Source: Closterium sp. NIES-65 (taxonomy: Eukaryota; Streptophyta; Zygnematophyceae; Desmidiales; Closteriaceae). Taken from it: a stretch of DNA of 64,000 nt. Positions 1 through 54,589 of this stretch are shown one piece after another (positions within the stretch are counted from its first letter, which is position 1; each line of letters begins with the position of its first letter). The position numbers were made by a program, and so were the translations under genes. The stretch lies in the NCBI GenBank assembly GCA_948144175.1, contig CANXME010002474.1, positions 310,001 through 374,000 on the forward strand, read 5' to 3'. The notes under the pieces are model-generated. The model saw only the letters and a list, made by a program, of their open reading frames with translations, ran no database searches and was not told the DNA's origin.

Positions 1-3000
1 CAAGGCACTCACATTCTCCAATCCACTCGTCCAGGCCACCGTTGGGTAGCATCTCGTAGACGAGAATCTGCTCCATGCGTGCGCCTGGCGATCCATCCAG
101 CGGCGGTGCCTTGCAGTACCCCAGCAGGCGCGCCACGTTCGGGTGACTCCTGGGGGACATCTGAGCTATCTGCAACAGGAGCGGGGTAGGGGAGAGGAGA
201 GGGTGGGGGAGCAAAGGGGTGGGGGTTTGGGTGGAGTAGAGGAATGAAGGACGGAATGTGAAGGGGAGGCGGGAAGGTGAGTGAGTGATAGTTGATGGTC
301 ATGTGCAAGAGCACAAGTGATAGCAGCAACAGCATGAGAAGAAGCTGCCGCAGCAAACGACAGCAGCACAAGCACTGCCGCTCGCTCGCTCGCTAGCCCT
401 CCTCCCCCTGAAAGCTGCTGCTGACCACTGTGAAACCACTGCCCAGCACCCACATGTTCACAGCACCAAATTCTGCTAACTCCCCAACCCACTTCCTTCT
501 GCTAACTAACAAATTCTGCAGCGCCTCAAAAACCGTGTCACTGCTCCCCACCAGCCCACCTCTCTTTGATAGTCGTTGCTGAGCACTTTGGCGCGCTTGA
601 CAGCCCACAGCGTGGTGCCGTCGTGCGGGGACACCCCGCGGTACACATCGTGGAAGGCCCCCGAGCCTATCAGGCTGTCCTCCGACCAGTTGCACGTGGC
701 CCGGCACAGCTCGTCTGGGGAGAACTCTCTCGTTGGTATCACACGCCTCTTGGCCGAGCGGGATAGACTTGATGAGCCTGCCATGTGGTGAAGGAGTGGG
801 GTGGGGGAGAGTGAGGAGAGAGGATAGGAGAGGAGTGCGGAGGAGGAGGGAGGGAGAGAGGGTATAGGACGGAGGGGGGACGAAAGATGGGGTGGAGGTG
901 GGGAGAGCTGGATGGGGCAGGTGTTGGGAGGCGGAAGTGCGAGGGAGGAAGCAAGGAACAATATTGAGGTGGGGGAGCGAACGATAATGAAAGTGCAAGA
1001 GGCTAAAGATGTGGTCCAATCAAACACTCCTTCCCATTCGCGTCCTTCTACTGGGATGAGGATAATGATCCTTACAGTAACATGCTCTACCCATCCTCAT
1101 CCCTCCTCCTAACCTCACCAACTACATCCCGTCACCCCTCCTTCTCCTCCCCCAACCTCCCTCTCCCTCTCCCCCCACCACTCCCTCCACTCCCTCCCTT
1201 CTTTCCACCCAAGTCCATACTGCTGGTGCGCGCAGGTTGCTGCTTCTGCCCCCCCCAGCGCCACCACACGACAGCAGCGAGCAGCATGACAGCAGCGACA
1301 GCGCCCACGATGGCCACGATGCCAGTACTAGACACGCCCGACTGCCGAAGAGGATCCTCCGGGGCCACAGGCGGGCCGGGAGGGGGCGGTAGGGGGTAGG
1401 CGGAAGAGGAGGAGGAGGACTGGGAGTGCCCTGATGAGTTTGCAGGTATGGGGGGTTTTAGGAGCGGCTGGGGCTGGGGCTGGGGCTGGGGCTGGGGAAA
1501 CGGCTGGGGCTGCGGCTGTGGGGATTGCCCTGAAGCTGGTGTTGGTGTTGGTGATGGTGCTGGTGCTGGTGCTGGTGATGGTGATGGTGATGGTGCTGGT
1601 GATGGTGCTGGTGATGGTGCTGGTGATGGTGCTGGTGATGGTGCTGGTGATGGTGCTGGTGATGGTGCTGGTGCTGGTGATGGTGCTGGTGCTGGTGATG
1701 GTGATGGTGATGGTGCCGGTGATGGTAGGGGGTTTGGAAGAGGGGAGGGTGCAGGAGGAGGGCGGCAGGAGGAGCAGAAGGTCGAGCAGAGGCGGCAAAA
1801 GGCGGAGGAGCGAGGAGGGCGTGTTAGGCAGGAGGAGGAGGCGGGAGGACAGGAGATGCGTGTGTCTGAGATATTCCTGGGAGAAGGGCACAGCGATGGG
1901 GCGCAGGGGGGTTGAGGGGTGGTGCGAGGGAGGGAGAACAGGGGAGAGAAGGCGTTGTTTGTGATGGGAGAAGAAAGAAACGGGAAGGATTTGAGTTGCG
2001 AATCGGAGAGACACAGGGGAATAGGTAGGAGGAAGAGAGGGATGAGGTGGGTGGGACAGTGAACTGAATCTGCCATTCACATCATGGCTGTAGAGCACTA
2101 GCCACAGGTACTGATGCATCAGGGGAATCGGATGTGGCACGGAGAGCGAGAGGAGCAGATGAGTGGTGACATGGTGAACGGAGTGACAAGGGGAAGAATG
2201 AGGGGAGTAAGATATGACAGAAGGACCAGGGGCATGGGGAGGAACGGCAAGAGGCAGAGTTGCAGCAGGAGGGGGAGCAGGGAAGAGGAAAGGGGAGTAG
2301 CGGGGGGGGAAATTTCGTGGGGGAGTGGGGAGGGGGAGGGTGAGGGGGAGGGTGAGGAGGGGGGAGGAACGGTGAGGGGAGGGAATGAATGATGGTGATG
2401 GAGCAAGCATACATACAGGAACTGGTGCGACTCTTGAGAATTCTCAAAAGTCGTACCAATGGAGCAAGCATACATACAGGAACTTGAGCCTGGAGAGAGA
2501 GGCGAGATACGATGGCACGGATCCTGACAACTGATTGTGCGACAGGTCCCTGTATCAGACATGTTATGCACCACCATGCCATGCCATACCACATGACACG
2601 TCATGCCATGCCATGCAATGCAGTGCAGTGCCATGCCATGCCATGCAATCATACGATGCCATGGTTTGATATAGGAAACGCGGAGAGCACCAACACCCCA
2701 CCTCATACATACCCCACCCATGAAGCATATGCCTCTATGCTCTACCCTGTTCCCATTCCCTATATTTCTCCCTGTCATTTGCTGCCATGCATACCCATAG
2801 TGCTGTACCTTCATTCTAACAAATACAAGGGCGGATGAAAGAGAGGAAATACAAGAGAGAGGGAAACGGATAAGTAGGAAGAAGAGAGAGAGGTTACAGG
2901 TCGGAGCTGAAAGGGGTCTGCGTGCGACTCACAGTAGTGTGAGGTCAGTGAGGCGTTGTAGTAGATGCAATGGGATGGGTCCACTCAACTGGTTGCTGCT

Positions 3001-3593
3001 CAGATTGCTGATGCCATTGCCATGTGTATACAGCGCCACCATGTCATTCCACACCATCCGACACCATCCCATACCATCGCATACCATCCCATACCATGCC
3101 ATGCCAAGTCATTCAATGTTCCATCCCACGTCACCCCATACCTTGAAATGTCATTCCATGGCATTACCCCCCATGTCATTCCATGCCACACATGCACAGG
3201 AGCGAATCCATGTGAATTAGCAAGTCGGATTAGCTTTGGGGTCATCACTCCCATGCATGGCATGGCATGACATGACATGGCGTGTGCAAGGGGTTCTGAG
3301 AGTATACTTGACATGCAAGTGCTCAGTCAATACGGAGGAGACGTGTAGAACGCAGACGATTGCAGCGTGCAAAGTCGCTCACAGGGTGCAGAGTCGCTCA
3401 CAGGGTGCAGAGTCGCTCACAGGGTGCAGAGTCGCTCACAGGGTGCATAGTCGCTCACAGGGTGCAGAGTCGCTCACAGGGTGCAGAGTCGCTCACAGGG
3501 TGCAGAGTCGCTCACAGGGTACGCAGTCTGTCAAGCTGTTGCAGGGAATTAGGTATTCTCCCTGATAGGTTATTGCTGCTCAAATCACTGCTT

Positions 3594-29767: not shown

Positions 29768-30195
29768 TGTTGGGAACAAATAAGTTAAGCGCCTCTGTCA
29801 TGTCAGAACTCAAGACACAAAGCGAAGCAGCTCAAGTCGAAGCATCGCGAGTCAACCCTCGGAAGTTAACGTAACCGCTGGAGGTTACGTGAAAGTCAAA
29901 GGTCAGCGACCTTTGACCTGACGCAGCGCGACAGCAAGGACAAACAACTGACTCGACATTGAGCAGTTGCCCGAGTCGCACTGTATCGAACCGCAACAGT
30001 AAAAGTAGTTATAATGTCTCTTCATATTCTCTGTACTCATCTATTTATATTCCTGTATCTCTTTGCTTTAACCAACTTACTTTGCCCTCACATACTAGCG
30101 CAAGGTGGTTCAAGGACTTTATTCAACGCTTCCGCTATTACATCACCTACTCAGACTTTAACTCTACAAAGATCCTAGGGCGTTTCAGCCCAACA
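29768..30195 (+). repeat. Copia-E 5' LTR
   Basis: 428 bp, TGTTGGGAAC...CAGCCCAACA. Confidence 0.95.
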
Positions 30196-30438
30196 TGGTA
30201 TGAGAGCAGTTAGAGTTAAAAGTTATTACTTTTCAACACTCAGTACATCAAGAAGACTGTTAAAGAAAGCAGTAGAGGTAGGCGCCATAGCTAGGAAATC
30301 CCTAGCTAGGCAAGAAACAGTTTAGGCAAAAGAGAAGTTCACTAGCAAGAATGAGGATACAAATAGCAAACCCTAGATGGGTTGTACTGGCTATAGAGCA
30401 CCCCACTACAGGCTAGAGAATAACATTCTGACAAAGAC

Positions 30439-30760
30439 ATGTCTGCTAGAAAGGAGAGGAGCTCCTCCAATGGCTCTCCCGGTACTACCCCTACTCCACC
30501 TCCTGTCTCTGGCCTACAGACAGAGGAGGGGACAACGACGAGACCAGCAGCTGGGTCTACGGAAACACCCGCAAACCAAGGCGCGGGTTTCGATCCAAGC
30601 ATGATGGAGAAATTTTTCTCCTTCATGTCCTTCTACGAGCAGCATCAGCAAGGAGTACATGCGCAATCAAACAACAGCAACAACAACAACAACGTGACGC
30701 CTATGAGCCTTGATGGCTCATCCTATGCGCGCGGGAATCAACATCAACAACCTACCGTCC
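30439..30760 (+). pseudogene. Copia-E gag remnant
   Basis: About 100 codons: a Ser/Thr/Pro-rich start (MSARKERSSSNGSPG), a FFSFMSFYEQHQQG helix and an Asn run. The frame then runs out of register just before the protease, and no capsid-sized region or zinc knuckle exists. Copia gag is normally several hundred residues, so most of gag appears deleted. Confidence 0.7.
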
Positions 30761-33700
30761 AAGAAAGACACATGGTTCTTGGACAGTTGCTGCGGACAGC
30801 ACATGTGCTCTTCGGGACGCTTCGTCCAACGTGAACATCAACTTCAACGAGAGGTCGTCATCACAGTCGCCAACAACCAGAACCTGCGCACACGACGACA
30901 AGGAGTAGTACAGCTTCAGTCCAGAGAAACAAACGTTATACTGCATATGTCAAAGGTACTAATCGCGGAGGGACTCGACTACAACTTACTGAGCGTCAGC
31001 CAGTTGATGGCGAAAGGCATTCACTTGGAGGCCGATAGTACCACCCAGGAGTTCAAATTATACCACGGGAAAGGCGGCCTAAACATCGGGAAAGCAGTCT
31101 TGAAAAACAACGTCTTCATCCTCGACTTCGTCCCAGACCTGGGCACCGCAGACGGCGACGCCATCGTGAACTTCGCCGACTGGACGCACCCTCCTGATCT
31201 TGATCCAGACTTCAGCCCGGAAGGTTTCTGGTACTCGCATACCATCCCTGAAGCAGAAAGAACACGCGCGTTAGCAACAATTCAACATTCGGCAGCAGCA
31301 GAAACAACATCGGCAGCAGATGAAACATCATCGGCAGCAGCAGAGACAACATCGGCATCAGCAGAGACAATATCGGCAGTAGCAGAGACATCATCGGCAG
31401 CAGCAGAGACAACATCGGCAGCAGCAGTAGGACCAACGACACCAGTCTTCGTCAACGAAGCACCACCAACACCCGCACAGCAGTTGAAACCAACTTAACG
31501 AGAAGTCCACAGAAGCGCAAACTTCGTCGCCAGCTTCTACTCCAACTCCGACGCGTATCGACGCTCACCCGGACATCGCGCCTACGAAAAAATCTGGCAC
31601 GCACGAATGGGACACCCGAGCAACACAGTGTTAAATAACACGATAAGAGCGGGAGTCCTAGACAAGGACTTCTTACTACTACCCGACGGCAGAGAACTTC
31701 AACGGGCACGAGGGACTTGTCTTACCTGCCCCGAAGCCGACTTACCACATCGACCGTTCACTCCTCATCACAACCCGAGCGCACCCGCGTACGCACCACT
31801 CGAGAAGGTGTACAGCGGTATTCTCTTCAATCGAGAACCAGGACAAGTTACCTACAACTACACGATTACTTTCATCGACGCCGCCACTCGATACGTCTGG
31901 CATCTCAATCTACCCAGCCGCGACATGGCACTCGCAGCGTTCGCCGCCTGGCTACCAGTAGCAGAAAGAGAGTCGGGAGCACAACTGAAAAGCTTCCAGT
32001 CAGACGGAGGAGGAGAATACACCTCTCAGCGATTCAAGCAGTACCTGGCGGAAAGAGGAATCAAGCAACTCCTCTCCCTTCCCTACGCCCATCAGCAACA
32101 AGGTGTCGCAGAACGAATGAACAGGACTCTGCAGAACAGCATGCGCAAATTGTTACGTGGCATGCGGCTACCCAACCACCAGTGGCCTGCAGCAATGGAC
32201 CATGCTGTCATGCTGCACAACTTAATGTCGTCGTCCTCACTCCCGAACAACGCATCACCGCATCTGCTGTGGACAGGGAAACAGGGCAGCACAAAAATGT
32301 TACGAGTTTTCGGGTGCATGGTACAGTACCGACCCCCAGAGGCACGAGCGGGAAGATTTTCACAACGCGCACAGTGGGGACTACACCTCAGCATCGAAAA
32401 GAATTACAACGTGTGGAAAATCTATGACGTCCACTCCAAGGGAATAGTAGCAGCACGTGAGGTGATCTTCTACGAACGACTCACGCTTCAGACGTACCTC
32501 GCCAACTTGCACGAAAATCAGGACCCCACAGGTGGCTTTCATGGTGACCGAGCCTTCGTCTCAGCAGCGGACGAAGCAGACTGGGACGAGCAGAACGTCG
32601 ACAACGCATCAAAAGAAGCCGGACCTCTCCCGTTCTGCTCCGTCAACATCCCCATGGACGAAGAAAATCCTCGCGAAAGCGCCAACGCCAAAGTCTTCTA
32701 TCACTTCGCCGACAATGGTTACGTTACACCTGCGACAGTCAACACCAACGAAGCAAAAAGAATAGGGCCGAATTTCATACCCGACCCAGAAGCGGGAGAT
32801 GAAGCAGCTTATCCCGAGGACACAACACTCCCCCGTTACTCACAGACTGGGCTGCAGATTCTCGGCCTCGTCACCGCAGTCCACGGCCCTCCTCTTCCTA
32901 AAGAGCCTGCGACAGTTCAGCAGGCTCTAGGGGGGGAACACAGGGAGAAATGGCGTGAAGCCATGGACAGAGAATTAAGGGCCTTGGAGGAACGGAACAC
33001 TTGGAAGGTCGTTCCAATTAGCGTGGCAAGAAACAAGACCATCCTTACCGGGAAATGGGTCTTCCGCATCAAAACGAAGGCAGACGGAACAATTGAGAAG
33101 TTCAAAGCACGCTGGGTCGTGCGAGGATTTGATCAGGAACACTGACGGGACTTCACCGAGACATTCGCCCCGGTTAGCCGACACACCTCTCTCCGAATCC
33201 TCCTCCCGATCGCCGCCATGAAGAAAAGGAAACTACGGCAAATCGACGTCGCTAACGCCTTTCTCTACGCACCCGTCGACGCCGAAATCTTCGTTGAGCT
33301 CCCACATGGTACCCACGGGGAACCTAATCAGGTTTGCCAGCTACTGAAATCGCTCTACGGGATCAAACAGGCCCCACGGCTATGGCAACAGCACCTACAC
33401 ACCCGCCTAACTCGCATCGGATTCCGCCAACTGCCTCACAACCAAGGCATGTACCGACTCACCAAAGACGCCAACTACATCCTGCTTATCGTCTACGTCG
33501 ACGATTTACTCTACATCGGTTCTACCGACGACATAACTACCTGGTTCGAAGGGGAGTTGAAGAAGGATCTCACACTCACGGTCTCCACTACCGTCACTCA
33601 GTATCTCGGACTCAACATCCGCGAAGAAGAAAATGCGATCTACCTCAGCGCCGAAAAGTATGCCGACACCATCGCCAAACGCTTCGCGCTCACACCTGCT

Positions 33701-34498
33701 ACTATCTCCACGCCATACCGCTACACGGCAGGGAACGGCAAGGGAAGCTCCGTCTTACTCAAAACCGCCGGAATACGCGACTACCAGCGAAAACTGGGCT
33801 GCCGCCTCTTCGCAGCCGTCACCTGCCGCCCAGACCTGTCCTACTCCGCAAGTCATCTTGCTACCTATCTCAAGAGGCCCGAAGCAGAACACCTGGCAGA
33901 ACTCGACCGCGCTCTTCACTACTTCGTGAGCACCGCAACGATCGGCCTGACGTACTACAAAAACACAACTACGCCGACGAAACTAATCGGCTACGTCGAT
34001 GCCGATCACGTCGGCGACTCAGACAACAGGCGCTCCCGCACTGGCTACATCTACCGCCTAGAACCTATCGGACCTATCTCATGGCAATCGAGCAAGCAGG
34101 AACTAATTGCGCTCTCCTCAGCTGAAGCAGAATATATCGCCCTCTGCTCAGCCACCAAGGAAGGACTCTACCTTCGCGAGCTGCTGGAAGAAGCGAAGTT
34201 AGCCGAGTTACCCAACTTCACTTTGTTCTACGACAACCAATCTGCAATTCGCATCGCCAACAAGAGCGGATTCGCGAACAGAACGAAGCATATCGCCCTG
34301 CGATACTTCTTCGTGAAAGACGAAATCGAGAAAGGGAAACTCGATCTATCCTACTGTCCCACGTCCGAGATGGCAGCTGACTACTTGACCAAGAAACTTG
34401 GAAAACAGAAGTTCGAGTACTGCATGCTACTGACTGGACAAAGCCACGTCACCATCAGCGACACTCCAGAAGCGAAGGGGAGTGTTGGGAACAAATAA
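30710..34498 (+). pseudogene. Copia-E pol: protease, integrase, RT, RNase H with two in-frame stops
   Basis: One reading frame runs from about 30710 to 34498, broken only by TAA at 31496-31498 and TGA at 33143-33145. The protease site reads WFLDSCCGQHM, with Cys where DSG(A) is usual. A SAAAETTSA-type repeat (about 31280-31430) links to integrase: WHARMGHPSNTVL, CLTCPEADLP, FIDAATRYVWH, FQSDGGGEYTS. RT: FRIKTKADGTIEKFKARWV, VANAFLYAP, YVDD at 33494-33505. RNase H: DADHVGDSDNRRSR, LSSAEAEYIAL, NRTKHIALRYF. The final codons cross the polypurine tract and the stop lies 14 nt inside the 3' LTR. Confidence 0.9.
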
Positions 34499-34910
34499 GT
34501 TAAGCGCCTCTGTCGTGTCAGAACTCAAGACACAAAGCGAAGCAGCTCAAGTCGAAGCATCGCGAGTCAACCCTCGGAAGTTAACGTAACCGCTGGAGGT
34601 TACGTGAAATTCAAAGGTCAGCGACCTTTGACCTGACGCAGCGCGACAGCAAGGACAAACAACTGACTCGACATTGAGCAGTTGCCCGAGTCGCACTGTA
34701 TCGAACCGCAACAGTAAAAGTAGTTATAATGTCTCTTCATATTCTCTGTACTCATCTATTTACATTCCTGTATCTCTTTGCTTTAATCAACTTACTTTGC
34801 CCTCACATACTAGCGCAAGGTGGTTCAAGGACTTTATTCAACGCTTCCGCTATTACATCACCTACTCAGACTTTAACTCTACAAAGATCCTAGGGCGTTT
34901 CAGCCCAACA
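34483..34910 (+). repeat. Copia-E 3' LTR
   Basis: 428 bp, about 99% identical to the 5' LTR, followed by CCAAC. Confidence 0.95.
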
Positions 34911-35099: not shown

Positions 35100-38000
35100 C
35101 TAGTCACTCGACAATCCGTCGCTCGATTGCATCCCTTGGGCCCGAGCAAGCTCCTTGGTGAAATCAATCTCTGTCGATGAAGACTCAAGCTCGCGATCTA
35201 TCTTTTCCGCCATCCGGTTAGACTCGGCCCCAAGGAACTCATCCTTCATCTCCACCAACGCTGTCAGTATCCGGTTCATCGATGGGCGAGAAGCAGTGGG
35301 CATGACAGTGCAGCTGATGGCAAGCTTGGCCATGCGGAGCACCAAATCATCTGGTGCTTGCAAAAGAGGATCCTTGAAGGCCGAGACATCACCAGCTGCC
35401 ACCAGAGGAGCCACCTGGTGTGAATAGTGAAATTGAAGGATGGGAAGCTGCGTCAATGGTGGTTGGGTTTTGGAAGCAATAACCGTCCCTGCTTCACTCA
35501 CCACAGCCACAGCAGGAGTTGGAGTTTCTGCGAGTTGGTTACTAAATAGGTATCGGTCGGACTTGGTGATGGCAGAATCATACAAGGACTATGAGCTCAC
35601 CCAGGTTTTCAGGTTGTGTTGGTCTGAGTCCACCATGTAGACGGCTTTGCGTGCGGTTATGACTGTTAGCATCACGACTCCAAAGCTGCGGGTTTAACAA
35701 TGGCACAAATGAGGGCGTGCAAAGCCATGGATGATATGGAAGGATGCGAATAATGCACAAGGATACAGGCACAAAGCATTGAACAAAGAAACAGACATGT
35801 TTGGAGAGATGCACATAAATGTACAGCTGTGCTGTTTCATGACGCTACTCCATACATGTGCACATAACCCATGCCTGTTCACATCACCCACACCTGTGCA
35901 CATCACCCATACCTGTGCACATCACCCATACCTGTGCACATCACCCATGCCTGTGCACATCACCCATGCCTGTGCACATCACCCATACCTGTGCACATCA
36001 GCCATGGGGGTGGCCTTCTGTGACTTGTAGTAAGCCGGGTCCACATAGCCCGGTGTGCCCATCACCCGCGTCGCAATCACTGACGTGCCCTCACCCATTC
36101 TGACAAGTCCGAAGTCCGCAATCCTGGCCTGTACATTCATTACGCATGCAAGCAATACAGGGTCAGATTTCTGAAAAAAAATAGCTGCATGTGAAGCAGT
36201 TGTTCGAATCTACCTGACCAATGCCACATCACTCGCATACCTGCATCTTGTTGTCAAGAAGCACATTGGCGGGCTTGATGTCGCGATGCACGATGCCAAA
36301 GCCATGCAGGTACTGCAGCCCCTGCGCCATGCCGATCATCACCTCCAGGCGCTGCCTGATCGTCAGCTGCTTGGGGGCGTCTGAGGCATGGCAAAGGTTC
36401 AGGGGGGGAGGTCTTTGCATTAGAGAACGTAAGCACCATGATTCCCGTGCGCGTGACGAAGGTCTTGGTGAAGGGAAGCAAAGCAACGACGAGTGGAGTG
36501 CAGTAGAGTAAAGCAGACTATAGTAGAGTGCAGTAGATTAGAGTAGACTAAAGTAGTGTAGACTATGGTAGAGGAGACTAGAGTAGAGAAGAGTAGACTG
36601 GATTCGAGAAGAGTAGAGTAGAGGAGGGCAGAGGGGAGTATCTCACGGGGTCCAATCCAGCGTTCGAGGTCGCCATTGGCCATGAACTCATAGATGACAA
36701 TCTGCTCGATGCGCTCCGTGGTGTGATTCATGTCGAAGCAGTACCCCAGCAGCCGCACCAGGTTCGGGTGATTCTTGGTCGCCATCTCGTTCACCTGCCA
36801 TGCGCTCAAGCACATGCAAAGGGAGCAACACACTTCCCTCTTGGTATTTATGTACGTGTCATTCATGGCCGTGGTCCCATGTATGTGATAACGGAAGCTA
36901 GAACCCAAGATGTACGCATGCGTGCAAGGCATAAATCAAAGGACACTACAATACGTGTCTAACATATCTGCGCTCTCTCTGGATGGGACCCGAGCATTGC
37001 ATTTGCTTTCTCACCTCGCGCTTGAAATCATTCGTCAGAATTTTGGCGCGTTTGACGGCCCAGGTCTCATGGGGAGCGGTGGGGTTGGCGCCCTTGTACA
37101 CATCCCCGAAGCTGCCGCTGCCAATGCGATTCGCCTCCGCCCACTCGCCCGTCGCTGCCGCCACCTCCGCCAGTGAATACTGCCGGCACACCAACGGACG
37201 TGCCTCCGCCACCGCTGCTGCTGCTGATTCTTCTTGCCTCACCGCTGCTGCCGCCACTGCAGCAGCTGCCACTGCTTCAGCTGCCCCAGCTCCTCCTAGC
37301 TTTGTGTCCAGATCACCAGTTTCTACCCCTCCCTTTCCTGCTTCCACGTCTTTCCCGTCCTTGCCCGCATGCTCTATCCTTGACTTCCGGGCCTTGTGGG
37401 CCCAGACAGCCAGCACCAAGAGGAGAATGAGTCCGACGATGCAACCCACGACGATGCCAGCAATGGCGCCTGACGACAGAGAGCTGCCGGTGCTGGTGCT
37501 GCTGCGGGTGCCGGTGTTGGAGGCTGGAGGTTTCGAGCTGGACACTGCAATCGGTGGTGGCATGGGATGGGTGATGGATGGGAAGGGGAATGGCAACCTC
37601 CATGTGGAGCGAGCACAACCAACAGCAGCAGCGGCATTGCTCACTCACTATCTAATCTTCAGGCACCTGCAAAGAAGGCGTGTGGAATATCTGTTTCGTA
37701 CATGCAACGACAGTCCTAAGAGTGCAAGGCAGCTCAATGGGGGGAAGCCAGGCTTAAGAAAGCAAACACAAGGAGAGGAAACAGTGTGATATCACCACAG
37801 GAGATCAGGGGCTTCAGGAGATTTGGTGGGGAGCCCATGGTAGCGAAAACGACTGGCCACGTGAAGAAAAGGCCCATGCGTAGGGAGGAGCGCCAGTGAA
37901 ATCCAAGGGGAGAGAATGAGCGCCAGTTGTAGGCAGAGGTAGGAAGAGGAGGCTCACTGTAGGAGGGAGAGCAAGTGGCGCAGAAGTTAGGGCAAGATCG

Positions 38001-51282: not shown

Positions 51283-54200
51283 CTACTTGCAACTGGACAA
51301 CCCATCGCTAGAGTTCATCCCTTGGGCCCGAGCAAGCTCCTTGGCGAAGTCAATCTCTGCAGATGAAGACTCAAGCTCGCGATCTATCTTTTCCGCCATC
51401 CGGTTAGACTCGGCCCCAAGGAACTCATCCTTCATCTCAGTCAAATCTGTGAGTATCCGGTTCATAGATGGGCGAGAAGCAGTGGGCATGACGGTGCAGC
51501 TGATGGAAAGCTTGGCCATGCGGAGCACCAAATCATCTGGTGCTTGGAGAAGGGGATCCTTGAAGGCCGAGACGTCACCCGCCGCCACCAGAGGAGCCAC
51601 CTGGTGAATTAAGGATGGGAAGGAGGATGTGTCAACTGGTGGTTGGAACTTGAAAGCAATAAGCTTCCCTACTTCACTTACAACCACTGTCAAGAGTTGG
51701 TATTTCTGTGCGTGGGTTGAAGATAGCGCAACAGAGTTTTCTAGATTGTTTCCAGAATGCAGGTCATTACCTTTTTGGTGATGGCAGAATCATACGAGGA
51801 CTATGAGCTCACCCAGGTTTTCAGGTTGTGCTGGTCTGAGTCCACCATGTAGACGGCTTTGCGGGCTGTTAGGACGGTCAGCATCACGACTCCAAAGCTG
51901 CGGGTTTAACAATGGCACAAATGAGGGCGTGCAAAGCCATGCATGATTTGGAGGGATGATAATGATGCACAGGGCTGTAGATCATGATCAAAGGAATAGA
52001 CATGAGAGGAGAGATACAGACAAATGTGCAACTGTACTTTTCTGTGACCTTATGTAATCTGGCTGTGTGTGCAGTTGTTATTCATGCACATCAAGAAAAC
52101 TAGAAAAGGTGACCAGAAACATCCACTCATCACCACCACTCAGCCTCACCTTACGCATCTTACAAACCAGTGGATATCAGCAGTTCCCACGCACATCACC
52201 CATGCCTGTGCACATCACCCATACCTGTGCACATAACCCATGCCTGTTCATATCACCCACACCTGTGCACATCACCCATACCTGTGCACATCAGCCATGG
52301 GGGTGGCCTTCTGTGACTTGTAGTAAGCCGGGTCCACATAGCCCGGTGTGCCCATCACCCGCGTGGCAATCACCGACGTGCCCTCACCATGCCTCACCAG
52401 CCCAAAGTCCGCTATCCTGGCCTGTGCTTGGATGGATTTACGCACAATAGCAACACAGAGCAGGCACAAGGAAAAGGACAACAGAATCACAGCATACTGT
52501 AGGCTTTGTTTGTTTCCCAGAAAGAAATAAGAAAAAGAAGGGTTGGTACGGCACTCCTCCTGCACCTGCATCTTGTTGTCAAGAAGCACATTGGCAGGCT
52601 TGATGTCGCGATGCACGATGCCAAAGCTATGCAGGTACTGCAGCCCCTGCGCCATGCCGATCATCACCTCCAGGCGTTGCCTGATCGTCAGCTGCTTGGG
52701 GGCGTCTGAGGCATGATGGATGCACCAAAGGGAAAACACAAGAATCCCAAACCTTCAGTTGTTGAGACTGGAAACGGAAGCACAGAGGGTCAAGTGTGCA
52801 TGAGAAAGAGTTGGGTCAAAGGCAACAAAGCTAAGAGGAATAGAGTCGATTAAAGAACAGTAGAGTAAATTAGAGCAAAGTGGAAAATAGCGGAAAAAAA
52901 GTGACTAGAGTAGAGTGGTAAAGAGGGTCAAGTGTGGAAAAGAGTGGAGTATCTCACGGGGTCCAATCCAGCGCTCGAGGTCGCCATTGGACATGAACTC
53001 ATAGATGACAATCTGCTCGATGCGCTCCGTGGTGTGATTCATGTCGAAGCAGTACCCCAGCAGCCGCACCAGGTTCGGGTGATTCTTGGTCGCCATCTCG
53101 TTCACCTGCCATGCGCTCAAGCACATGCAAAGGGAGCAATACACTTCCCTCTTGGTATTTATGTACGTGTCATTCATGGCCGTGGTCCCATGTATGCGAT
53201 AACGGAATCTAGAACCCAAGATGTACGCATGCGTGCAAGGCGTAAATCAAAGGACATTACAATACGTGCCGAACATTTCCGTACTCTCTTTGGATGGGAT
53301 TGGAGTATTGCATTTGCTTTCTCACCTCGCGCTTGAAATCATTCGTAAGTATCTTGGCGCGTTTGACGGCCCAGATCTCATGGGGAGCGGTGGGGTTGGC
53401 GCCCTTGTACACATCCCCGAAGCTGCCGCTGCCAATGCGATTCGCCTCCGCCCACTCACCCGTCGCTGCCGCCAACCTCCGCCAGCGAGTACTGCCGGCA
53501 CACCGCTGGATGTGCCTCCGCCACCGCTGCTGTTGCTTCTTCTTGCCTAACGGCTGCTGCTGCCACAGCAGCAGCCGCCATTTCTTCAGCTGTCCCAGCC
53601 TCCCCTGTCTCTGTGTCCATGTCACCAGTTTCTGCTCCTGCTTTTCCTGCTTCCACGTCTTGCTCGTCCTTGCCCACATGTTCTTTCTTCTCTGCCTTCG
53701 TCTTTCTGGTGCAGTAGACCCAGACCGCCAGCAGAAGGAGGAGGAAAATGAGTGCGAACACGCCACCCACGACAATGCCAGCAGTTTCGCCTGACACTGC
53801 AAGTGATGGCATGATGGGTGGTGGATGAAAGGGAGAGGGGCAAATTGTTGTTTGAGTGGTCACATGCAGGCAGCGGCAGCAGCAACAGACGCTGTGGTAG
53901 ACAGAATATCCAGGTACACGTGGTGGAAGTGGTGTGTCCACGTGGCATGTGTACAAAACAGTGACGCGAACATCACTTTCCGTGTCACTCCAGTGTGACA
54001 TTTTGTGTGGAATTACGCAGTTTCGACTGAAACTTTCCGTGATTTTCAAGTAACAAACGCCTTGAATCTTTCATCCATGACGGGCACGGTTCATGACATC
54101 TTGTACTTGCATTTTCCGCGATCGTTCCATATTTAAGTCGTGCAAACAAAAACCAGTGTCAGACGTGTTGGCGGGTGGAAACGAACAAAACGCTATCATC

Positions 54201-54300
54201 CACTGTAGATAGACTGCGCGTGTAAGATTCTGGAGCGCGGATCGTGGCAGGGCGAGGAGGAGAAGCGAAGCAGAAACAGCGGCGTCACGCCACGTGCCAT
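51283..54300 (-). pseudogene. RLK3: RLK2 paralogue lacking its ectodomain, frameshifted
   Basis: Kinase exons line up one to one with RLK2: 53326-53796, 52958-53105, 52566-52705, 52282-52421, 51813-51897, 51283-51600, all splice sites kept. HRDIKPAN, DFG and GTPGYVDPAYY are intact. An extra A near 53474 (GCCGCCAACC against GCCGCCACC in RLK2) shifts the frame between membrane span and kinase. The membrane span (GIVVGGVFALIFLLLLLAVW) is present, but only about 500 bp separate it from the presumed start at 54300, and no N-cap, LRR or Cys exon is there. The start exon (MARGVTPLFLL) is one base short against RLK2. Either a recent pseudogene or, less likely, a source of kinase-only protein from an internal start. 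Confidence 0.8.
52206..52300 (-). repeat. 19-bp splice-donor minisatellite in RLK3, 5 copies
   Basis: Exon-end strings at 52206, 52225, 52244, 52263 and 52282, exactly 19 bp apart. 52282 is the DFG exon border. Same unit as in RLK2, with fewer copies. Confidence 0.92.
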
Positions 54301-54589
54301 CGCGCCACTCACGACAGGGGGATACTACTACTCACTATCGTCGCTCTAGCAAAACGACTGCGTGACGGGGGAGACGGACGGAAAATTCGTCGGCGCGGGG
54401 AGTTGAAGGTGGCTCAATGGTGTCCGGGTGTGGAAGAGGAGAGCAGTGCTGCAGCAGATTTTTTATGTGCGCTTTAGTGGTCTCAAAATGCCACAAGAAC
54501 TTATTGAAATGCTTGAGGGTGAAACTGGAGAGAATGGATTGGGTTGGGAGAAAGGGTAGGGGAGGAACGCAACTTGAACGAGAATTTGT
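54301..54589. other. RLK3 5' flank between presumed start and upstream module
   Basis: Unique sequence without coding signs. It aligns loosely with the RLK2 5' flank at 40594-40850. Confidence 0.4.

Follow-up and report, generated by a model that had tools for sequence, protein, structure and literature searches.

Directly behind the DFG exon of RLK2 the 5' splice site is repeated several times over, and the question raised by this locus is which of the copies is at work and what the others are there for. RLK2 is one of the minus-strand receptor-kinase genes with LRR-like exons that lie among retrotransposon-like open frames (by eye) in the window, by which is meant the whole 64,000-nucleotide stretch of Closterium sp. 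NIES-65 DNA that was analyzed. The reading preferred here, with a probability of roughly 0.8, is that a minisatellite was seeded across the exon-intron junction, that its first donor is in use and that the downstream copies are tolerated passengers. The source genome assembly comprises 874 Mb in 2400 contigs; for the C. psl. complex, PMC10407611 puts genome size at an estimated 454-1,188 Mb and describes numerous genes in multiple copies. A copia-like retrotransposon (29768-34910, ORFs by eye) ends ~190 bp from the RLK2 stop; its end repeats (29768-30195 and 34483-34910) are 99.1% identical over 428 bp, which implies that the element is young.

The kinase part of RLK2 (minus strand) is assembled from an exon with a transmembrane-like segment and the P-loop (37015..37544), a kinase exon reading VNEMATKNHPNLV... 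(36647..36794), the HRD exon (36241..36380), the DFG/activation-segment exon (ARIADFGLVR...KSQKATPMADVH + AG; 35989..36128), whose phase-2 end is placed by continuity with the next exon and by alignment with FERONIA, and that next exon, (C)FGVVMLTVITARKAVYMVDSDQHNLKTW (35601..35685), which follows the acceptor CCGCAG|C. LRR-like exons (e.g. NNLDGTIPAQMGSLTAL) and a hydrophobic segment have been read by eye only. The spliced kinase exons match Pfam Pkinase at 3.3e-39 and have FERONIA as best PDB match (3.6e-45); the Lys, HRD and DFG motifs are intact in the translation (WAVK, HRDIKPAN, ADFG), and the exons are predicted to splice to an intact plant-type kinase.

For a survey of the family, 40 of 314 candidates were scored; of these, 38 lie outside the window, where ~1.2 kb was retrieved at each and 10 kb at 20 of them. 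Together with the window, the 20 loci yield, with one duplicate dropped, a set of 23 genes with a full-length DFG exon match of >70% identity (RLK1, whose DFG exon is degenerate, falls outside it). The query that found the loci contained the array and the genes are not independent, so that the p-values given below are a guide only. At the exact homologous place all 23 members examined, RLK2 and RLK3 included, have GT (in RLK2, 35987..35988, minus strand); 18 of them lack a TRF array over it, and 10 have neither an array nor a tandem exon copy. When the first donor of RLK2 is joined to CCGCAG|C at 35685, the protein reads ADVH-S-FGVVMLTV and lines up with SDVYSFGVVLFEAL of FERONIA; the match of ADVH-S-FGVVML with SDVYSFGVVLF makes the protein continuous across this donor. 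The FERONIA alignment and the GT in 23 of 23 genes thus uphold the exon border on which the first-pass annotation had relied, and we infer that the exon-proximal donor makes the functional receptor mRNA.

As delimited by TRF, the array runs from 35850 to 36005 (period 19, 8.2 copies, 91% matches, score 256); it takes in exon bases 35989-36005, and so crosses the exon-intron junction. The exon ends (minus strand) ...CCC ATG GCT GAT GTG CAC AG and is followed directly by GTATGGGTGATGTGCACAG and more units; its last 19 bases, CCATGGCTGATGTGCACAG, agree with the unit at 16 of 19 positions (counted by eye), which implies that the exon end, with the junction, belongs to the repeat. Seven 19-bp units of the type GATGTGCACAGG(T/C)ATGGGT (35867..35999, minus strand; TRF and pattern search) each carry a donor-like CAG|GT or CAG|GC, and beyond them lies a decayed eighth, TATGTGCACATGTATGGAG (35848..35866, minus strand), with CAT|GT in its place, making 7 of 8 units with a potential donor of the CAG|G(T/C) kind. 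The last base before each donor is 35989 (GT), 35970 (GC), 35951 (GC), 35932 (GT), 35913 (GT), 35894 (GT) and 35875 (GC), with 35856 preceding the GT of the eighth. Seven donor copies at a 19-bp period directly after the activation-segment exon, three of them with GC (35970, 35951 and 35875), are what the first-pass annotation had described for 35875-36128 (the DFG exon plus the array through unit 7); all this is found, and the eighth unit is to be added. With up to 3 mismatches allowed, the unit pattern has 12 matches in the window (7 in RLK2, and 5 at 52198-52292, in RLK3) as against 0.02 expected.

Reading past the first donor leads at once to a stop: R-Y-G is followed by TGA (35981-35979; 35979..35981 on the minus strand, from translation), as the annotation had stated. 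This TGA lies inside unit 1, ahead of donor 2, so that donors 2-7 would all encode one identical truncated kinase, its product ending ...ADVHRYG, before subdomain IX. The proposal that later donors make kinase-truncated receptors therefore keeps its truncation and loses its series of variants. By the usual rule, a stop with exon junctions downstream makes a transcript an NMD target; transcripts from donors 2-7 would have such junctions and would probably be targets. A stop within 4 codons past the DFG junction occurs in 10 of the 23 family members, 2 of which are among the 10 genes with no tandem copy. In duplex energy with U1 the first donor of RLK2 (-7.7 kcal/mol) is matched or nearly matched by the later GT copies (-7.7, -7.7 and -7.1); the GC copies come to -5.6 and the eighth unit to -1.9, the median of 31 donors in the window being -5.4. 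Donor strength thus singles out none of the GT copies; position and homology do.

The same junction carries the same array in RLK3, 16 kb away, which is absent from the first-pass annotation. This 19-bp array (52191..52298, minus strand; TRF) stands at the end of the RLK3 DFG exon (52282..52421, minus strand) at the homologous junction, 52282 being the last exon base. Array length differs, with 8 units in RLK2 and 5 plus a degraded sixth in RLK3, and RLK2 units 1, 6, 7 and 8 correspond to RLK3 units 1, 2, 3 and 4 at 19, 19, 18 and 17 of 19 positions. This correspondence implies that the array predates the duplication of the two genes, or was exchanged between the copies, and that its length has changed since. 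RLK3 (51290-54340, minus strand) has kinase exons 95-98% like those of RLK2 in protein; its P-loop exon has one extra base and is split between two frames, and no LRR matches were seen between its N-terminal-like part and the transmembrane segment. It is probably a decaying copy.

Elsewhere on the same contig (C2176) a fresh eight-unit 19-bp array is found at C2176:624244 (L009/L049), and decayed 19-bp arrays occupy the same junction at C2176:579199 (L010/L050), 601822 (L015/L055) and 665107 (L016/L056); in these three some downstream donors are now GG, GC or TT, others are still GT, and the first donor is intact. Other periods also occur at the DFG junction. In L065 the array there has a period of 16 bp (13.6 copies); in L057 the period is 42 bp, and a shortened copy of the exon forms the unit. 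In the L017/L018 pair (99.5% identical) the 42-bp array has 8 units in one member and 7 in the other. Among nine locus pairs compared across contigs, eight are 99.2-100% identical over the aligned part, and the ninth (L042/L043) is 64% identical; the near-identical pairs look as if two haplotypes, or recent large duplicates, were both in the assembly. In a tree of 23 kinase domains the 19-bp DFG arrays fall into two groups with array-less genes between. Loss, gene conversion or a second origin is then needed, and this counts against the minisatellite reading.

The DFG donor is not the only one so equipped. In RLK1 an array of 19-bp units, GTGAGCGACTCTGCACCCT, with a diverged exonic first unit (3363..3533, minus strand; TRF 3363-3520) starts at the donor of an LRR exon (CCCT|GTGAGC), in a sequence unlike that of RLK2; the claim that an unrelated sequence in RLK1 forms a second 19-bp donor array is borne out, with the LRR-exon donor as its place. 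L057 also has a 19-bp array at an LRR donor, its unit agreeing with that of RLK1 at 15 of 19 positions by eye. At the HRD exon donor, L052 and L054 carry 22-bp arrays (7.2 and 11.0 copies); in these related genes the exon end and GTCAGT are almost invariant and the spacer varies. A 24-bp array stands at the IX donor of L057, and a 29-bp array (2.2 copies) at the C exon donor of L058. The significance that the first-pass annotation attached to a period common to RLK1 and RLK2 gains no support from this comparison: a common cause is unsupported, since period 19 is found in 8 of 112 arrays of the loci examined (the RLK1, RLK2 and RLK3 arrays being 3 of the 8) and other donors of the family carry periods of 16, 22, 24, 29 and 42 bp. 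In RLK2, 19 bp may come from the spacing of ATG(G) between exon position -17 and intron position +3 (by eye).

RLK1 has further peculiarities. Another of its LRR exons has a second copy of its donor region 61 bp downstream (2398-2483, minus strand); between the 25-bp copies lies a 36-bp near-perfect palindrome (TGGTACGACTTTTGAGAATTCTCAAGAGTCGCACCA). The RLK1 kinase runs beyond the window into L047 (C2176:305000-310500), where HRD is intact, NLG replaces DFG and the activation segment is shortened; to judge from these residues it looks like a pseudokinase.

Whether donors are favored over other positions depends on the measure. TRF arrays cross 8 of 112 donors versus 1 of 113 acceptors (p 0.019, genes non-independent), the acceptors being those of kinase exons; the sole acceptor array, in L058, has a 145-bp unit, and the IX and 42-bp DFG arrays of L057 fail the strict cover rule and are outside the 8. 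The DFG donor lies inside a TRF array in 5 of 23 genes versus 3 of 89 for other donors (p 0.009, with non-independent genes and an array-bearing query), an enrichment that counts against regarding the copies as passengers. In the window, 4 of the 31 donors and none of the 29 acceptors have a copy of at least 17/20 within 300 bp (RLK2 and RLK3 sharing one array among the 4), and 6.5-8.2% of random positions in the window genes reach the same cut, so there is no clear donor excess. A 20-base copy test over the 23 genes gives 12/112 donors, 9/113 acceptors, 7.8% of exon interior and 20.6% of intron interior, with no junction excess. For donor-like words in the units of arrays the count is 25 of 195 on the strand of the gene and 20 on the other, as against 11.0 expected by shuffling, and neither strand is clearly preferred. 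TRF coverage of the 23 genes is mostly intronic: 14% of introns (4577/32762 positions) as against 0.4% of exons (57/15429).

Three housekeeping (CCT) loci are as duplication-rich as the RLK genes. TRF covers 13.6% of these loci taken whole, versus 10.0% of RLK kinase spans, and a close local copy exists for 29% of 1095 20-base positions in CCT versus 15% of 3930 in RLK. Partial self-copies lie nearby outside the exon for 12 of 16 CCT and 26 of 136 RLK exon segments, CCT exons being here profile-match segments (PF00118) unconfirmed as exons; one such match in L071 (C1626:723752-723874), itself a partial copy of the first exon, was dropped. Exons flanked by partial self-copies are seen in the CCT loci L069, L070 and L071, and also in L057, L058, L062, L064, L066 and L068. 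Upstream copies mostly carry the exon start and downstream copies mostly the exon end. Some extend well into the intron, like plain tandem duplications (the second segment of L070, the third of L071); in others similarity ends close to the splice site or exactly there, despite 90-95% identity in the exon part. An example is the third segment of L069, where the copy on the upstream side and that on the downstream side overlap by the same 9 bases. Copies that end at the splice site, as in L069, are unpredicted by plain tandem duplication and count against the minisatellite reading.

Selection on the downstream copies has been judged from deviations from the consensus. In ten arrays pooled, downstream units deviate in the donor core at 16 of 567 positions versus 48 of 840 elsewhere (p 0.013), which counts against the passenger reading; GT itself deviates in 6 of 126 cases, about as often as the remaining positions. 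In the HRD 22-bp arrays the donor core deviates in 1 of 144 cells versus 20 of 208 others, and in the units of RLK2 and RLK3 variation is greatest at the +2 base. This count leaves out the decayed L010, L015 and L016 arrays, RLK2 unit 8, RLK3 unit 6, the L065 units past the ninth, and L058, and leaving out decayed arrays and units favors conservation. Since units also copy each other, the pooled count does not decide.

How the minisatellite could have arisen is readily pictured. A short tandem duplication, with a unit made up of the last 11 exon and first 8 intron bases, would have placed a second 5' splice site within the intron, and the array would then have grown and shrunk by slippage or unequal exchange. 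Downstream donors would be tolerated because the upstream copy still works; they look like a by-product of a genome rich in short tandem duplications, and if used now and then they would yield a single truncated transcript, probably a target of NMD. On the simplest reading, arrays would arise all along introns, those across a donor being tolerated and those across an acceptor removed, since splicing may there choose an additional AG upstream. No such donor/acceptor difference is seen in the 20-base copy test (12/112 versus 9/113). Support for the minisatellite comes from the relatives that are losing downstream donors yet keep the first, from the 8 versus 7 units of L017/L018, from the arrays elsewhere, and from TRF repeats being mostly intronic, with CCT controls as rich.

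A regulated array, in which later donors are used on purpose, to make a truncated receptor or to tune RLK2 mRNA through NMD, is judged unlikely from the sequence. The downstream GT copies are indeed about equal to the first in U1 pairing; every later donor leaves, of the 303-nt intron that follows the DFG exon, more than the shortest homologous intron among relatives (104 nt); and the core is somewhat spared in the pooled arrays, most clearly in those at HRD. Set against these are the three GC donors among RLK2's seven, with the +2 base as the greatest difference from RLK3, the partial loss of downstream donors in L010 and L015/L016, the 18 of 23 genes that do without a TRF array over the DFG donor, the single truncation that is all later donors would add, and an array retained in RLK3 despite its divided P-loop exon. 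That units serve as AG|GT points, acceptor and donor in one (whether for recursive splicing or for intron birth through AGGT duplication), seems very improbable: most read CACAG|G(T/C), as that scheme would have it, but the unit has no polypyrimidine tract, and a spacing of 19 bp leaves no room for an intron. That the RLK2 intron itself was gained through AGGT duplication was also considered and rejected, the intron position being common to array-less relatives. A boundary-crossing tandem duplication is reported to have given rise to an intron in potato (PMC4974935), and this speaks for such a route.

A structured RNA switch built from the self-complementary GTGCAC of successive units (present in 7 of 8 RLK2 units) is hardly credible, and was rejected, as the folding energy equals that of shuffled sequences (z 0.06). 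Misassembly, to which tandem repeats are prone, is scarcely a better candidate; the three named 19-bp loci are all on one contig, but the arrays at C2176:345847, 362191 and 624244 differ in unit order. Beside the passenger minisatellite there is, finally, the doubtful idea that in this genome 5' splice sites are preferred minisatellite seeds and that selection keeps some arrays, whether to hold redundant donors in reserve or to set the balance of full-length against kinase-dead receptor. If true, one RLK family would hold at least six distinct donor arrays (DFG with 19, 16 and 42 bp, HRD with 22, IX with 24, LRR with 19), and perhaps also the 29-bp array of the C exon, against one acceptor array (the 145-bp unit of L058). 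The family can be thought of as a natural experiment: several of its junctions carry similar donors, up to ~13 of them, 16-42 bp apart, and close relatives occur with and without arrays. It bears on how the spliceosome chooses among equal neighboring donors, and on whether the most upstream always prevails. To judge from the surroundings, duplication of exon edges into the adjoining intron is frequent in this genome.

Boundary-crossing duplications have precedents. The RdRp gene of potato is reported to have gained an intron by tandem duplication across an intron-exon boundary (PMC4974935); RLK2 shares the boundary-crossing duplication, but has no new intron, and its intron position is common to array-less relatives. 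In recent human segmental-duplication paralogs, according to PMC2812944, minisatellites (on average 30-bp units, four times repeated) alter gene structure, and those at exon-intron boundaries may form novel introns; in RLK2 the exon keeps its form and its frame, and there is no sign of a new intron. Among the top matches in the open literature (titles and the starts of abstracts), no report of donor arrays in an alga appeared. The closest counterpart is human, a minisatellite of the 6-16 gene (IFI6/G1P3) that is reported to span an exon-intron junction. It reportedly provides multiple splice donor sites (Turri, Cuin and Porter 1995, NAR 23:1854). Two downstream repeat units of IFI6 serve as donor sites, as stated in PMC4526556 (the minisatellite title is also cited in PMC2572611). 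In both systems minisatellite units carry splice donors, used in IFI6 and potential in RLK2; the difference is that IFI6 is an interferon-induced gene for which use of several donors is reported, whereas RLK2 meets a stop at once past the first. On the evidence of its sequence, the RLK2 array most likely belongs to the same kind as that of human IFI6, a minisatellite seeded at the junction, with the first donor in use.
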